Below are positions 2,329 to 33,191 of a stretch of DNA of 40,342 bases, piece after piece. Each line of letters starts with the position of its first letter. Position 1 is the first letter of the stretch. The translations under genes and the position numbers were made by a program. The stretch comes from an uncultured Candidatus Pelagibacter sp. (lineage in GTDB: Bacteria; Pseudomonadota; Alphaproteobacteria; Pelagibacterales; Pelagibacteraceae). The stretch covers positions 1 through 40,342 of the forward strand of contig CAJQRP010000022.1 of the NCBI GenBank assembly GCA_905612365.1, written 5' to 3'. The notes under the pieces are model-generated. The model was not told the origin of the DNA. It did no database searches and saw nothing but the letters and a program-made list of their open reading frames with translations.

Positions 2329-3313
2329 ATTTTTCCTTTAAAGTACATACTGCTAGGCCAAATCTTAAGGATCTATTCCATTGTAGTATTTTTTCATAAT
2401 TTTCAAAAACTATATAGGCTGGATCTAAATTTTGAGCATCAGGTATAATATCTTTATCTGGTGTTATTATTGATGCAATCAAATTTTCGTCAATAACATT
2501 AAAACCATCCTCATTAATTAAATATTTTTTTAATAGTTTAAACTTATTTTTATTGTGAAGTTTTTTTGCAGATGTGTTTAATATATTGTCAGGTATATTT
2601 TTCTTTAATTTGACTTTTATGAAACAAGGTTGGTTTTTCTTCCATCCTATTTTATTTATATAGTTAGCTGCAGAAGCAAATGAATCTATAGTTGATTTAA
2701 GCTCAATAATGTTATTTTTATCATAGTCTATCGCATAGTTGTCTATAGTAGAGGGCATAAATTGAAAAAAACCAAAAGCTCCCGCCCACGAACCATACAA
2801 AATATCATGGTCTATTTTTCCTGCATCTATTAATTGAAGAATTGTAATTAACTCGTTAGTAAAAAAATCAGATCTTCGTTGATCGTAACTTAAAGTTGCT
2901 AGGGATGACAATATATCCATTTTTCCCACATAAGTTCCAAAATTAGTCTCTATCCCCATCAATGCTAAAAGTAACTCTTTCTCAACTGAAAATTTATTAT
3001 CTATCATATTTATGAAATCTTTATTCAATCCATAAAGTTTAGTACCCTTATTTACTTTTTGTTTAGAGGTTCTCTTTGATATGTAAGTTTTTGTATCCTC
3101 ATAGAACTCGGGTTGAAAACGGTCATATTTTATCACCTTAGGTAAAAACACAACATCAGACATTGCTAGATTAAATGTCTTTTCTGATATTTTTTTTTCT
3201 AATGCATAAACTTTAAAATTTACCAACCACTCATTAAATTCTTTTTCATTGGCATTTAATGTTCCGTGGATAATTGTAAAAAATATAATTATTAAATATT
3301 TAATTATTTTCAT
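2312..3313 (-). CDS. mltB: Lytic murein transglycosylase (MltB family)
   Basis: GIETNFGTYVGKMDILSSLATLSYDQRRSDFF and GSWAGAFGFFQFMPSTIDNYAIDYD motifs. Confidence 0.9.
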   Translation of the reverse strand: MKIIKYLIIIFFTIIHGTLNANEKEFNEWLVNFKVYALEKKISEKTFNLAMSDVVFLPKVIKYDRFQPEFYEDTKTYISKRTSKQKVNKGTKLYGLNKDFINMIDNKFSVEKELLLALMGIETNFGTYVGKMDILSSLATLSYDQRRSDFFTNELITILQLIDAGKIDHDILYGSWAGAFGFFQFMPSTIDNYAIDYDKNNIIELKSTIDSFASAANYINKIGWKKNQPCFIKVKLKKNIPDNILNTSAKKLHNKNKFKLLKKYLINEDGFNVIDENLIASIITPDKDIIPDAQNLDPAYIVFENYEKILQWNRSLRFGLAVCTLKEKFENAL

Positions 3314-4654: not shown

Positions 4655-6706
4655 ATGAAAAATAAGAATAATTATGATTATTTATTGGCAGATCTCACTA
4701 AATTAAATGGGGTGGGTAAAAAAACCATGGAAATTTTAAAGAAAAAAAAAGTAAATAATATTTTTGATTTACTGTGGAGATTGCCTAAGTCTTATACAGA
4801 CAGAACTCTAGTTAGTAAAATTTGTGACCTCCAAATAGGTATTATTCAAACTATCAGAATTGTTCCACTAAAATATCAATTTCCAAGAGTTCGAAACTTA
4901 CCAAATAGAGTTAATTGTATTGATGAAACTGGAAAGATTGATTGTATATTTTTTAATAGTCACGAAGGATATGTGAGGAAAATTTTGCCGTTAAATGAAG
5001 AGGTGACAATTAGTGGTAAGATAAGTAATTATAAAGGACGATATCAAATAACAAATCCCACGTATATTTCACAAGACAGCTCTTTAATTGAAAATATTGA
5101 TAATAAGTATTCATTAACAGATGGAATTACTGAAAAAACTTATAATAAAATCATCAATCAAATATTAAAAAACTTACCTACTTTAACTGAGTGGCACGAT
5201 AAAGACATATTAAAATTTTTTAATAATCAAAGCTGGAATGAATCAATAATAAAATTACACGATCCAAAAAATATTGAAAATTACAAATCTGATTTCTATA
5301 AAAGGCTTGCTTATGATGAAATACTAGCATCATTTTTAGTTAATTCAGAAATTAGAAAAAAAATTAAAAAAATTAAAAAAGTTTCTAAAAATTTTACTGA
5401 AAAGGCTCACAACAATATAGTTAACAAACTAGACTTTACTCTTACTAATGATCAAAAAATTTCATTAAATGATATCAATAATGACCTAAATTCTAAAAGT
5501 AAAATGTTTAGACTTTTGCAGGGTGACGTTGGAAGTGGCAAAACTATTGTTGCATTAATTTCTTCTTTAAGTGTCATTAGTTCAGGGTTCCAAGTTGCAT
5601 TAATGGCCCCTACTGAAATATTAGCTAGACAGCATTATAGTTTGGCCAAAAAACTATTTCCTAAAAATATTAATATTGAATTACTTTCTAGTAAGAGTGA
5701 AAATAGCGAAAAAAAAAGAATTGTAGAAGAATTAGAAAACAATGAAATTCAAATGGTTTTCAGCACGCATGCAATTTTTCAAAAAAAAATAGTTTTTGCA
5801 AACCTTGGTTATATTATAATTGATGAACAGCATAAATTTGGTGTTAGGCAAAGAAAGCTTTTATCAGATAAGGGTGGTGATAATTGTGATGTTCTTTTAA
5901 TGTCTGCAACACCAATTCCAAGAACCCTAACTATGTCAGTTTATGGTGATATGGATGTTTCTATTATTAAGGAAAAACCAAGTAATAGAAAAGAGGTCAA
6001 AACTTACAGTAAGTTAGAAAGTAAAATAGATGATGTTATTAATTTTGTTAAAAAGGAAATAAAGGAAGGAAACCAAATCTTCTGGGTATGTCCTTTGATA
6101 GAGGAATCAAAAAAATTAGATCACCAATCTTCAGTTACTAAATATAAATTTCTTAATGAAATTTTTCCAAACAATGTTGCATTACTTCATGGAAAAATTG
6201 ACAATGAAGAAAAAGAAGAAATATTGAATAAATTTTTAAACAAAGAATATTCAATTTTAGTTTCAACAACAATTATTGAAGTTGGTATTGATTTTCCTAA
6301 TGCCAATGTAATCATAATAGAAAATGCTAATAAATTTGGGTTATCACAGTTACACCAGTTAAGGGGAAGGGTTGGACGTGGGGCGAAACAAGCTAGTTGC
6401 ATATTGATGTTTAAGTCCAATTTAAGTGTTAATGCTAAAAAAAGAATTAATATTTTAAAGAACTCTAATGATGGTTTTGAAATCTCAGAAGAAGATATGA
6501 AGTTAAGAGGTTTTGGTGATTTGCTAGGATTTAAACAGAGTGGTGTTAAAAATTTTAAATTAGCAGATCCTATTCAAAATGAAGATTTATTTTTAATGGC
6601 AGAAAAACAAATTAAAAAAATAGAATTAGAAAATATTGATATTAAAAAATATAAATCATTACTCAAGTTATATGATCAAGCAGATATAATTAACGATATG
6701 GTTTAG
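4655..6706 (+). CDS. recG: ATP-dependent DNA helicase RecG
   Basis: LLQGDVGSGKTIVA, MAPTEILARQH, DEQHKFGVRQR, MSATPIPRTL, QLRGRVGRG helicase motifs. Confidence 0.97.
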   Translation: MKNKNNYDYLLADLTKLNGVGKKTMEILKKKKVNNIFDLLWRLPKSYTDRTLVSKICDLQIGIIQTIRIVPLKYQFPRVRNLPNRVNCIDETGKIDCIFFNSHEGYVRKILPLNEEVTISGKISNYKGRYQITNPTYISQDSSLIENIDNKYSLTDGITEKTYNKIINQILKNLPTLTEWHDKDILKFFNNQSWNESIIKLHDPKNIENYKSDFYKRLAYDEILASFLVNSEIRKKIKKIKKVSKNFTEKAHNNIVNKLDFTLTNDQKISLNDINNDLNSKSKMFRLLQGDVGSGKTIVALISSLSVISSGFQVALMAPTEILARQHYSLAKKLFPKNINIELLSSKSENSEKKRIVEELENNEIQMVFSTHAIFQKKIVFANLGYIIIDEQHKFGVRQRKLLSDKGGDNCDVLLMSATPIPRTLTMSVYGDMDVSIIKEKPSNRKEVKTYSKLESKIDDVINFVKKEIKEGNQIFWVCPLIEESKKLDHQSSVTKYKFLNEIFPNNVALLHGKIDNEEKEEILNKFLNKEYSILVSTTIIEVGIDFPNANVIIIENANKFGLSQLHQLRGRVGRGAKQASCILMFKSNLSVNAKKRINILKNSNDGFEISEEDMKLRGFGDLLGFKQSGVKNFKLADPIQNEDLFLMAEKQIKKIELENIDIKKYKSLLKLYDQADIINDMV

Positions 6707-28475: not shown

Positions 28476-29251
28476 TGATCATAACATCTTGGAATGTTAA
28501 TTCAGTTAGGGCAAGAATTGAAAATATTAAAGAATATCTGCAAAAATTTTCTCCAAATGTTGTCATGATGCAGGAAATTAAAACTCAAGACGAAACTTTT
28601 CCGTATGATGATTTTTCAGCATTAGATTATGAAAGTCATGTTTTTGGTCAAAAGAGTTATAATGGCGTTGCAATCATTTCTAAGCACAAACTAGAAAATG
28701 TCAGATTAGATTTGATTAAAGATAAATTAAAACAATCTAGAATTATTTCAGCAGAATTAAAGCATAAGAAGAAAAATATACAAATAATTAATATTTACAC
28801 ACCAAACGGTAATCCAGTAGATACTGATAAATATACTTATAAAAAAGAATGGTTAGATAGTTTAATTAAACAATTAAAAACTCTTTCAAAAAAAAATGAA
28901 AATATTATTTTAGCAGGTGATTTTAATATTCTTCCTTCAGCAGAAGATGCATATAATATTAAAGGGTTTGAAGATGATGCTTTGTATAGACTTGAGATAA
29001 GAAAAAAATTTAGAGAAATGATTAATCTGGGTTTCCATGATGCTTACCGTCATATTCATGGTGAAATAGAAGGTTATACTTATTGGGATTATATGAGAGG
29101 TGCTTGGCAAAAAAATAATGGATTAAGAATTGATCACTTCTTAGTATCAAATTCTTTATTAAATATAGTTAAGAATGTTAATATTAATAAAGACCCCAGA
29201 GGAAAAGAAAAACCTTCAGATCACACACCTATTGAAATTGAATTAACTTAA
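28475..29251 (+). CDS. xthA: Exodeoxyribonuclease III
   Basis: MIITSWNVNSVRARIENIKEYL, VVMMQEIKTQ, GVAIISK, AGDFNILPSAEDAY, RIDHFLVS, KPSDHTPIEIEL. Start set at 28475 (TAATG with the upstream stop) rather than 28445. Confidence 0.95.
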   Translation: MIITSWNVNSVRARIENIKEYLQKFSPNVVMMQEIKTQDETFPYDDFSALDYESHVFGQKSYNGVAIISKHKLENVRLDLIKDKLKQSRIISAELKHKKKNIQIINIYTPNGNPVDTDKYTYKKEWLDSLIKQLKTLSKKNENIILAGDFNILPSAEDAYNIKGFEDDALYRLEIRKKFREMINLGFHDAYRHIHGEIEGYTYWDYMRGAWQKNNGLRIDHFLVSNSLLNIVKNVNINKDPRGKEKPSDHTPIEIELT

Positions 29252-30241
29252 AGATTTAATTTTATTAACAAGTTCTTCATTAATATTTCTTGGACCTTTA
29301 TCTAGTCTATTTTTATGTCTTCTTTCTCCAGGAAGCCTAACACCATCCATAGCTGACATTTTACTAAAAAACTCATCAGCATGCTTGTCCCAACCTTTAC
29401 CAGAAATTTTCTCAGGTGAGATTGCGATAATAAATTCACCACCACTTGGAGGACCACCATCGTTATTATCTTTAGCAGCAGTTTCAAAACTAAAATTTTC
29501 ACCGATTAATGCACCAGCAAGTAATTCTACCATCATTGCTATACTTGATCCTTTGTAACCACCGAACGGTAATATAACTCCACCATCTGCAATTTCTCCA
29601 GGATCGGTAGTTTCTTTTCCATCTTTAGTTAAGCCAGTTCCAAGGGGTACTTTGTGCCCTTCTCTTTTTGCAATTTGAACTTCGCCCATAGCCATTGAAG
29701 CTGTTGCCATATCATAAACAACTGGAGTTTTACCCGGTCTTGGCCATGCAAAAGAAATTGGGTTTGTTCCATACAAAGGTTTTGTAGCACCTGCTGGAGC
29801 AACAGCTGGCTTATAAGAAGTACAAGCTATACCAACAAGTCCTGCCTCAGCTATAGCTTCAGTTTCAGGCCAAAGAGCTGCCATGTGATGTGAATTTTTT
29901 ATAGCAAGAACAGCGACACCATTTTTTTTAGCTAAATCAATAACCGCTGGTAGTCCTAAACTTAAAACCATTGGTGCAACAGCATTATTACCTAATACTT
30001 TAATAATACATGGAGCAACATTTTCTAATTCTGGTCTTGCTTTACCATTAATTTTTTTGCTTTTTAAACCAGCTACATAAGCTGGGAGTCTAAAAAGACC
30101 ATGTGATACAGAGCCATCTCTTTCAGCTCTCATGATTGTGTCTGCTAAAATACTGGCATTTTCATCATCACAACCATTAGCTAATAATGTTTTTTTAGCT
30201 AATTCTAATATTTCATTTAAAGTTAAGGAAACTGTATTCAC
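29243..30241 (-). CDS. Malate/L-lactate dehydrogenase family oxidoreductase (Ldh_2; possibly delta1-piperideine-2-carboxylate reductase type)
   Basis: AERDGSVSHGLFRLPAYVAGLKS, VAVLAIKNSHHMAALWPETEAIAEAGLVGIACTSYKP, GTNPISFAWPRP, LPFGGYKGSSIAMMVELLAGAL. Confidence 0.85.
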   Translation of the reverse strand: MNTVSLTLNEILELAKKTLLANGCDDENASILADTIMRAERDGSVSHGLFRLPAYVAGLKSKKINGKARPELENVAPCIIKVLGNNAVAPMVLSLGLPAVIDLAKKNGVAVLAIKNSHHMAALWPETEAIAEAGLVGIACTSYKPAVAPAGATKPLYGTNPISFAWPRPGKTPVVYDMATASMAMGEVQIAKREGHKVPLGTGLTKDGKETTDPGEIADGGVILPFGGYKGSSIAMMVELLAGALIGENFSFETAAKDNNDGGPPSGGEFIIAISPEKISGKGWDKHADEFFSKMSAMDGVRLPGERRHKNRLDKGPRNINEELVNKIKSLS

Positions 30242-30256
30242 ACAAACTATTAAATA

Positions 30257-30655
30257 TTATTTATGTTTACTTTTCAAATCCTTTTTTAAATCTTCGTGAT
30301 CACCTACCACATTATGATATTGACTTTTGGTTACATACTTTTCTAAAAAAGGTACTGCTAATAGAGGTAAGAATCCACCAAGAACAATTCCATAAGCTGC
30401 ACTTTTTAAGTTAGGATCAAGCATGGCTGCTATAAAGTCCGCTATAATATGAGCTAAAACTATTCCAATAATTCCAGCAATTGCACCGTTAGAAACTAAT
30501 TTTAAAAATCGGTTGATACTCCAACCTGAATAAAACCCAATTAATGGAATTAATGTATGTATGAAGCCGAAGATAAAACCTCTTAATATTCCGTATTCTT
30601 CTATAAGTTCTTCTAAAAAATGAAGAAATTCTGGTAATTCGTGTGCGTGTTCCAT
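30257..30655 (-). CDS. Small integral membrane protein with His-containing N-terminus, coupled to the Fur/Zur-type gene
   Basis: 132 aa, about 3 hydrophobic segments; N-terminal MEHAHELPEFLHFLEE; TAATG overlap with the upstream regulator stop. Confidence 0.65.
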   Translation of the reverse strand: MEHAHELPEFLHFLEELIEEYGILRGFIFGFIHTLIPLIGFYSGWSINRFLKLVSNGAIAGIIGIVLAHIIADFIAAMLDPNLKSAAYGIVLGGFLPLLAVPFLEKYVTKSQYHNVVGDHEDLKKDLKSKHK

Positions 30656-31005
30656 TAGTTACATCTCCTACATATTGTTGAGACTTCAAGTTGAAACTTA
30701 CTGAAGTCATATTTTTTTATTGGGTTTTTTTTAAATATTGTTTCAAATAATTCTGAATTAAGCTCCTCTGTGTCTCCACAATCTCTACAAATAGCAATAG
30801 ATGGATTATGCTTAACATGTTCATGACTGCACAATACATAAGTCTTATTTTGATTGGATTTATGTATCTTATCCTCTTCTATTAGTTTTTTTAAAGATCT
30901 GTAAACAGCCATCGGTTGTATCTTCTTAAATTTTTGAAATTTATCTAATATTTCATAAGCAGTTAAATGCTTCTTGGATTTCTTAATTATATCAAAAACT
31001 AACAT
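30655..31005 (-). CDS. Fur-family (Zur-like) transcriptional regulator, apparently N-terminally truncated
   Basis: FDIIKKSKKHLTAYEILDKFQKFKKIQPMAVYRSLKKLIEEDKIHKSNQNKTYVLCSHEHVKHNPSIAICRDCGD...STICRRCN; wing-helix core plus two CxxC pairs. Start placed at ATG 31005; the track extension to 31074 is antisense to the PiT-like gene. Confidence 0.8.
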   Translation of the reverse strand: MLVFDIIKKSKKHLTAYEILDKFQKFKKIQPMAVYRSLKKLIEEDKIHKSNQNKTYVLCSHEHVKHNPSIAICRDCGDTEELNSELFETIFKKNPIKKYDFSKFQLEVSTICRRCN

Positions 31006-31958
31006 TACTATATACGATTGTTGGATTTGCATTAGCTGGATATAGTGTAATAGCAAATGACTCAATTCAAACACTGGGTACTTTTATTGCCTCAAAACAA
31101 AAATGGTTTAAATGGTATACGCTTGCAAGTGCAGCATCATTTGTACTGATCCTTGCTATTACTTGGGGCTGGTACAGTAATAATGGTGATATCTCATATG
31201 GAAGATTAACCCAAATACCTTACCAGGAAATTCAATGGTATCATGCTGTTGCACCAGGAATACTTTTGGTATTAACGAGATTTGGAATACCCGTTTCTAC
31301 AACTTTCTTAGTTTTATCTGCTTTTGCGTCAACTGTAATTCTTGAAAAAATGCTTATGAAAAGTGTTGTGGGCTATGGCCTTGCAGCAATAGCTGCATAC
31401 ATTTGTTGGATTATTATTTCAAAATTTATTAACGAAAAATTAGATGAAGTTGAAGATAAATGGATTGGTTTTTGGCGTAACTCAGTATGGTTTACTTCGG
31501 GTTTATTATGGTGGGCTTGGTTATCTCATGATGTAGCTAATATAGCTGTATATTTACCAAGACAATTAGATGTTACATTATTATTAATTGTTCTGGGTTA
31601 TTTTACAGTTTTATTATTTTATATTTTTTACATACATGGTGGAGCAATCCAAAAAGTAGTTTTAGAGAAAACTGGCACAAGATACGCTAGATCTGCAACA
31701 ATAATAAATATTATTTATGCTGGTGTTCTCTATTACTTTAAAGAACTTAATGACTTACCCATGTCTACAACTTGGGTGTTTGTTGGACTATTATGTGGAA
31801 GAGAATTAGCAATTGCTTCAATGAATAGTGATTATAAATTCAAATATGTTTTTCCACTTATCGGTAAAGACTTCCTTAAAATGACTTTGGGATTAACTGT
31901 GTCAGTAGCAATTGTATTAGCAATTCATTACATCATTATTCCAAACGGGTTTTTCTAA
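30987..31958 (+). CDS. PiT-like (phosphate permease family-like) membrane protein, start codon not identifiable
   Basis: Open frame from 30987: LYQKLTLLYTIVGFALAGYSVIANDSIQTLGTF... with two PiT-like repeats (ANDSIQTLGT/HDVANIAVYLP and PVSTTFLV/PMSTTWVFVGLLCG). The track ORF starts at an internal TTG (31266), which would cut off conserved-looking sequence. Confidence 0.7.
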   Translation, partial: LYQKLTLLYTIVGFALAGYSVIANDSIQTLGTFIASKQKWFKWYTLASAASFVLILAITWGWYSNNGDISYGRLTQIPYQEIQWYHAVAPGILLVLTRFGIPVSTTFLVLSAFASTVILEKMLMKSVVGYGLAAIAAYICWIIISKFINEKLDEVEDKWIGFWRNSVWFTSGLLWWAWLSHDVANIAVYLPRQLDVTLLLIVLGYFTVLLFYIFYIHGGAIQKVVLEKTGTRYARSATIINIIYAGVLYYFKELNDLPMSTTWVFVGLLCGRELAIASMNSDYKFKYVFPLIGKDFLKMTLGLTVSVAIVLAIHYIIIPNGFF

Positions 31959-31985: not shown

Positions 31986-33191
31986 TTATTTAATACGGCC
32001 ATATACATCTTGAAACCTTACAATATCACTTTCTTTTAATATTGATCCAACTTGAGCTTCAATAATTTTTACTGGTTTGTTGCCCGGATTTTCAATTCTA
32101 TGAATTGCCTCTAATGGAATAAAAATATGATCATTTTGTTTTTTAGAAAAACTATCTTTGTTAAGTGTAATTTTTGGTGTTCCTTGAGTAACCAGCCAGT
32201 GTTCAGATCTATGGTGATGTTTTTGTAAACTTAAAACACCTTTTGATTTAACAAATAATTCTTTAATTAAGAAACCTTTACCTTCAAATAAATTAACATA
32301 CCTACCCCATGGTCGGTAATAAACATTTTTTTTCTTATAATATTTAATCTTATTTTTGGCATACATTTTTAAGATCTCCTTCCAACTACCAAGATCTGAC
32401 CAAGGAATATCTAATTTAATTGCATTGATTTGTTTAGTTTTTTCTAAAATTGCATAATCAAATGATTTAGCAGTAGCTTTCTCAAAAGAGGTTTTATTTA
32501 AATAATAAGTGTTATCTTTAAGTCTCGCTTTTGAAACGGCATTAACACAATTTTTATATATTGTTGGTTGGTACTTTTTAAAGTTATTTATTATTGAGTC
32601 TTTTCTTAAAAAAAACATTCCAGAGTTCCAATACCCTTTTTGTTTAATCACTTGTTTAGCCTTAGCTTCAGTTGGTTTTTCAATAAATCTAGTTACTTTA
32701 TTAATATTTCCTTTAACTTTTTTTGTTATAAAATAACCATATTCGCTAGAAGGAACCGTTGGTTTAATGCCAAAAATAAATATATTTTGATCAGTTAAAT
32801 TGTCTTTATTTTTATTTATAGCTTTATTAAAAATACTTGCTTTTTCTATCAAATGATCAGCTGCAAAAAATATTAGGGGTTGTTCGTTTGGAATATCTTT
32901 AATTAATGCTGAAGCTAGAATTGCTGGTGCTGTATTTCTTTTAGAAGGCTCTAGTACTATTTTATAGTTTTTAACTTTAAACTTTTTTAAGTAACTTTTT
33001 ACTAATTTTAAGTACTTAGCGTTAGTACTGATAATTGGATAATCAAAAGTTGGACTTTTAACTCGTTCTAAAGTTTTTTCTAATAAACTCCATCCACCGA
33101 AATCAATGAATTGTTTTGCTAAATTATTTTTAGATTGTGACCAAAGTCTTGTTCCGGCTCCACCACATAAAATAACGGGTCTAATTTTCAT
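31986..33191 (-). CDS. manC: Mannose-1-phosphate guanylyltransferase with C-terminal cupin (ManC/CpsB type), short form
   Basis: PVILCGGAGTRLWSQSKNNLAKQF, FAADHLIE, WNSGMFFLRKDSII, DIPWSDLGSW, cupin RPWGRYVNLFEGKGFLIKELFVKSKGVLSLQKHHHRSEHWLVTQGTPKI. Confidence 0.92.
   Translation of the reverse strand: MKIRPVILCGGAGTRLWSQSKNNLAKQFIDFGGWSLLEKTLERVKSPTFDYPIISTNAKYLKLVKSYLKKFKVKNYKIVLEPSKRNTAPAILASALIKDIPNEQPLIFFAADHLIEKASIFNKAINKNKDNLTDQNIFIFGIKPTVPSSEYGYFITKKVKGNINKVTRFIEKPTEAKAKQVIKQKGYWNSGMFFLRKDSIINNFKKYQPTIYKNCVNAVSKARLKDNTYYLNKTSFEKATAKSFDYAILEKTKQINAIKLDIPWSDLGSWKEILKMYAKNKIKYYKKKNVYYRPWGRYVNLFEGKGFLIKELFVKSKGVLSLQKHHHRSEHWLVTQGTPKITLNKDSFSKKQNDHIFIPLEAIHRIENPGNKPVKIIEAQVGSILKESDIVRFQDVYGRIK

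Follow-up and report, generated by a model that had tools for sequence, protein, structure and literature searches.

In the window, which comprises all of contig C22 (40,342 bp) of the uncultured Candidatus Pelagibacter sp. assembly G000, a minus-strand gene for a Fur/Zur-type regulator and a plus-strand permease gene are fused head to head at 30997-31004 with zero spacer (Table 1). We conclude that this join is probably an artefact, such as an MDA deletion chimera. The reading we prefer, to which we give a probability of about 0.72, is that it is a direct phi29 chimera that arose during the amplification of a single Pelagibacter cell, which presumes both a single-cell MDA source and an origin in the tube. 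The junction is most likely not a biological feature, and what deserves attention is the intact locus in the relatives rather than the join; that locus appears to hold a little-studied alternative metal-control module in a highly abundant ocean bacterial group.

Table 1. Features at and around the join, in window coordinates; the names of the dehydrogenase-like and guanylyltransferase genes are our assumptions, read off the sequences alone
Feature	Position	Strand	Remarks
Dehydrogenase-like gene (presumed)	29243..30241	-	adjoins the zur-like/mem132 pair in the genus, not in every relative
mem132, 132-aa membrane protein	30257..30655	-	directly downstream of the regulator; weak MntP/ZIP similarity
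Compact Zur-like Fur-family regulator, 116 aa	30655..31005	-	PF01475; orthologues about 120-123 aa
Junction	30997..31001	.	AACTA common to both sides with the G028 and G425 alleles
Permease	31002..31958	+	complete except for the start codon and second codon
Mannose-1-phosphate guanylyltransferase (presumed)	31986..33191	-	flanking; intact and collinear with relatives

The source assembly comprises 618 kb in 54 contigs and is 55% complete. Its closest named relatives are records of 'uncultured Candidatus Pelagibacter sp.', mostly labelled RIS_SAG, and the window genome is therefore SAR11; we infer that G000 is likewise a single-cell amplified genome (a SAG/MDA product). RIS_SAG_26 (G028) and RIS_SAG_41 (G206) served as the reference intact loci. 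On either side of the join the window contig runs collinear with G206 and G424, and the join is the sole break relative to both. The 'INV' flags that appeared when the window was compared with G066 merely reflect the permease being sited elsewhere in G066. Between 33500 and 37000 the nearest relative changes from G206/G424 (80-91%) to G066 (92-95%), as expected for ordinary recombination among SAR11 strains.

Comparison with the relatives showed what the join had removed. The six closest relatives carry 546-570 bp between the two junction halves, and in both reference loci, arranged permease < DUF6552 < Zur box > zur-like > mem132, 545 bp separate the start codons of permease and regulator and contain the DUF6552 gene. 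The lost stretch (~570 bases) thus comprises this 73-aa gene, the Zur-box palindrome, the start of the permease and the codons for about five residues at the N-terminus of the regulator, and both control regions with their leaders were lost along with it. In the window the open frame of the permease begins at 30987, just after a stop, and contains no ATG, GTG or TTG before the TTG at 31266, whereas the permeases of G028 and G206 have 321 aa and an ATG start. The regulator begins MLVFDIIKKS... at the ATG at 31005, a chance start codon made by the join, and ends at 30655; further upstream its frame is antisense of the permease. A search of 30600-31400 found no promoter-like site, where 4.2 were expected from shuffles. 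These observations bear out the preliminary description of both reading frames and its statement that no intergenic or promoter space remains. Its label 'PiT-like' for the permease is weak, as the full-length G028 permease matched PHO4 (PF01384) with only 12.9 bits (E 0.053), under the cut-off of 33.7, and no PHO4 match to the window form was listed in the profile search.

The preliminary description had offered two explanations, a deletion of both 5' ends and the promoter region between them or a chimeric assembly join, and the spacer, small gene, operator and two starts present in the relatives agree with such a loss, with the chimeric branch favoured. Matches to relatives extend as far as 31001 for the left junction half and begin at about 30997-31002 for the right one, giving an overlap of 5 bp (AACTA) relative to the G028 and G425 alleles and 0 relative to the other alleles. 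Identity to G206 beside the join was 97.4% on the left and 97.0% on the right. As the flanks belong to one lineage, without an identity step, the join is therefore of deletion type, and a join to a foreign contig was ruled out by the lack of a step at 31000. The spacer was not found elsewhere in the 55% of the genome that the assembly covers, and a search of it for DUF6552 returned a single hit, 41% over 32 residues, with stops. Flanks of the same lineage and a lost piece absent elsewhere would also fit a misclosed gap, that is, an assembler error joining two contigs by scaffolding collapse with no chimeric molecule. We consider such an error improbable, since at most 5 bp are common to the two sides, far under usual k-mer overlaps, and no run of N stands at the join.

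The join proved to be unique to this assembly. When a 200-bp query across it was compared with 14 other genomes, there were no matches spanning the join; both halves matched separately in 13 of the 14, and the regulator half alone matched in G427. A 30-mer across the junction, with up to three mismatches allowed, occurred in one of 399 genus genomes, G000 itself, and an exact match was absent from IMG/VR. We therefore rejected the idea of a common natural variant, given its absence from the 14 close relatives, the 399 genus genomes and IMG/VR. The locus comparison that had been named as a check able to refute a deletion or chimera revealed no equally short head-to-head genes among the 14. It is very improbable that the window shows a real, tightly packed head-to-head gene pair whose permease uses a non-canonical start. 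Short spacers do exist, with only about 150 bp between permease and zur-like gene in locus L102, but in those relatives whose permease adjoins zur, the permease starts with ATG and a spacer is present, and the window alone lacks the Zur box and both leaders.

A more serious alternative, although still an unlikely one, is a real and very recent chromosomal deletion by short-match end joining or slippage. In that event the permease and DUF6552 would be silenced and the zur-like/mem132 operon would be severed from its promoter and operator. The cleanness of the join, its position within a single lineage and the new in-frame ATG of the regulator would all suit a real deletion. The length and content of the spacer also vary in relatives; loci L101 and L102 have extra sequence of only 294 and 145 bp and naturally lack the DUF6552 gene, while keeping a spacer and Zur box, showing that spacer changes do occur. 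Against a real deletion stand the uniqueness of the junction, both among the 399 genomes of the genus and next to the 14 close relatives, and the removal of a permease start and an operator that are kept in nearly all relatives. Neither coding sequence has decayed; the codon differences from G206 are 8 silent and 0 replacement in zur, and 38 silent and 3 replacement in the permease. The lack of decay indicates that the event was either very recent or occurred in the tube.

A further argument in the same direction comes from a plainly artefactual join in the same assembly. We screened 20 further contig stretches of G000 together with the window against 840 kb of the complete relative G066; ~150 kb were alignable. 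Contig C14 (L131) contains, at 5160-5167, an inverted join with an 8-bp overlap, TATCATTG; the part to its left aligns with G066 888243-893409 on the plus strand and the part to its right with 882754-880670 on the minus strand. The join cuts two genes that we take from their sequences to be secG and lpxA, ~15 and ~95 codons before their respective ends, and both are intact in G066. As a cell with secG and lpxA both cut is unlikely to be viable, G000 contains at least one amplification-type chimera, and we therefore take the join in the window to be another, of direct type. A second candidate, an apparent insertion in contig C19 (L136) at 411-785, was rejected as a chimera because a whole cupin-like gene lies there between two intact genes, and we regard it as natural; the gene splits two G066 neighbours, and its G066 counterpart is far off (386 kb versus 1,230 kb coordinates).

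Both joins resemble described phi29/MDA chimeras, in which two nearby parts of the same genome are joined. The overlaps in such chimeras are mostly 5-8 nt with a peak at 6, and the joined sites lie at distances between 0 and more than 5,000 nt (PMC4595205). Inverted chimeras are reported to form more readily than direct ones (PMC4595205); the 8-bp example in C14 is inverted, and the join in the window belongs to the less readily formed direct (deletion) type. The short overlap seen with the G028 and G425 alleles, the restriction to G000 and the second, inverted chimera in C14 together support the chimeric join that the preliminary description had proposed. Counting against an artefact are the direct type of the join, the zero overlap with alleles other than those of G028 and G425, the position of both endpoints no more than about 20 bp from start codons, and the in-frame ATG regained by the regulator; the last two need not be expected of an artefact. 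We propose that, during whole-genome amplification by phi29 polymerase, a displaced 3' end would have re-annealed at AACTA about half a kilobase away, and that the chimeric product would then have been assembled as genome; the locus of the real cell would be as in G028 and G206. In single-cell genomes of streamlined bacteria, such chimeras can pass for lost genes or unusual starts; comparison with relatives and a check of the rest of the assembly for additional truncated genes can expose them.

We then considered the regulator as it occurs at the intact loci. Its PF01475 scores of 37-38 bits (37.9 for the window protein) against a cut-off of 23.1 indicate a Fur-family fold by profile, and the family has two CxxC pairs. 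The best PDB match of the G028 orthologue was E. coli Zur (4mtd; E 9e-8), with which it shares the winged helix of the Fur family and the two CxxC pairs; the NCBIfam Zur equivalog NF008646 gave 47.9 bits, below its cut-off of 167 and still the best of the Fur subfamilies. In contrast to E. coli Zur, the protein has ~120 aa and lacks ~24 N-terminal residues, the alignment beginning at query residue 17 and Zur residue 41. A loss of 25-30 residues in the window had been suggested at the outset, and this did not hold; orthologues begin MNNNDIVFDII (120 aa in G028 and G206), the window form is ~5 residues shorter, and ~40 orthologous loci in several SAR11 genera and two families share nearly the same start. 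The near-identity of these starts indicates that the short form is native to the whole family and that the join cost only those ~5 residues.

The 20-bp palindrome TGTTATGTTATAACATAACA, or a near variant of it, ends 0-5 bp before the zur-like start at nearly all loci examined (for example L087, at 3159-3178, L088 and L064). In two loci it overlaps the start codon, L075 carries a weaker version, and L105, whose zur-like gene is 88% identical, showed none within 90 bp of the start (upstream of 1376). Three loci, L077, L069 and L071, were left unscored in this tally of positions, L069 and L071 because they were too short. The motif of E. coli Zur is TRWNAYRWTATAWYRTNWCA (PMC6103462), and the palindrome of the relatives agrees with it at 20 of 20 positions. 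Allowing up to three mismatches, the palindrome had a single occurrence in each of seven genomes that carry the zur-like gene; three near-complete genomes that lack the gene, and G000, had none. Likewise, TRWNAYRWTATAWYRTNWCA occurred once in 840 kb of G066, at the zur-like gene, and was not present in the window. The putative operator thus lies at the gene for the regulator itself, as in autoregulated Zur, but with a single operator per genome and not beside znuABC. Autoregulation of Zur has been seen where zur and its targets share an operon (PMC6103462, a review). The mem132 gene is a conserved partner at nearly all zur-like loci, and in G039 the two genes are divergent with the palindrome between them. 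We infer that zur-like and mem132 would form a self-regulated operon or pair acting through the predicted Zur box, in keeping with that review.

The distribution of the regulator was compared with that of ZnuB in 397 genomes of the order. The compact Zur-like protein was present in 29, spread over seven genera and two families, and ZnuB in 311; only G190 had both, against about 23 expected (Fisher p 1e-19, a value that ignores shared ancestry and incomplete genomes). The znuB of G190 looks intact. In G019 and G002 an ordinary Zur with znuB occupies the place beside DUF6552, so that this SAR11 zur-znuBC locus has the same neighbourhood of permease, DUF6552 and then a Zur-type gene. There, however, a 135-aa Zur leads into znuB/znuC, whereas in the window type a short paralogue, 33% identical, leads into mem132. 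The near-exclusion of ZnuB and the shared slot make the compact Zur-like/mem132 pair look like an alternative to Zur/ZnuABC, judging from gene content and neighbourhood. In a survey of SAR11 metal uptake, ZnuABC was the sole zinc system named and was present in half of 22 genomes (PMC4771312). We tentatively suggest that in some SAR11 lineages a compact Zur, its DNA-binding domain shortened, may have taken the place of Zur/ZnuABC; the single genomic operator under its control would be the one at the two-gene operon that it forms with a small membrane protein.

The likeness of that membrane protein to the MntP and ZIP metal transporters consists of weak profile similarity and conserved His/Asp in its helices. 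The mem132 protein scored 23.1 bits with Mntp (PF02659; cut-off 24.4) and 22.1 bits with Zip (PF02535; cut-off 35.1), and weak similarity was found to the MntP profile in 21 of 26 relatives and to ZIP in 12 of 26; the proteins, of about 123-144 aa, differ from both families in falling below the curated cut-offs. A profile search of the PDB found nothing, and a predicted model (mean pLDDT 73.8) matched no solved structure at E<=0.001 in Foldseek, the best match, photosystem I subunit L at E 0.46, being dismissed as uninformative. The sequence of mem132 is strongly conserved, and its motifs AHxxxD and VGDH are invariant; in some relatives the protein is extended at the N-terminus by what resembles a signal peptide, and L080 carries two mem132 copies in tandem.
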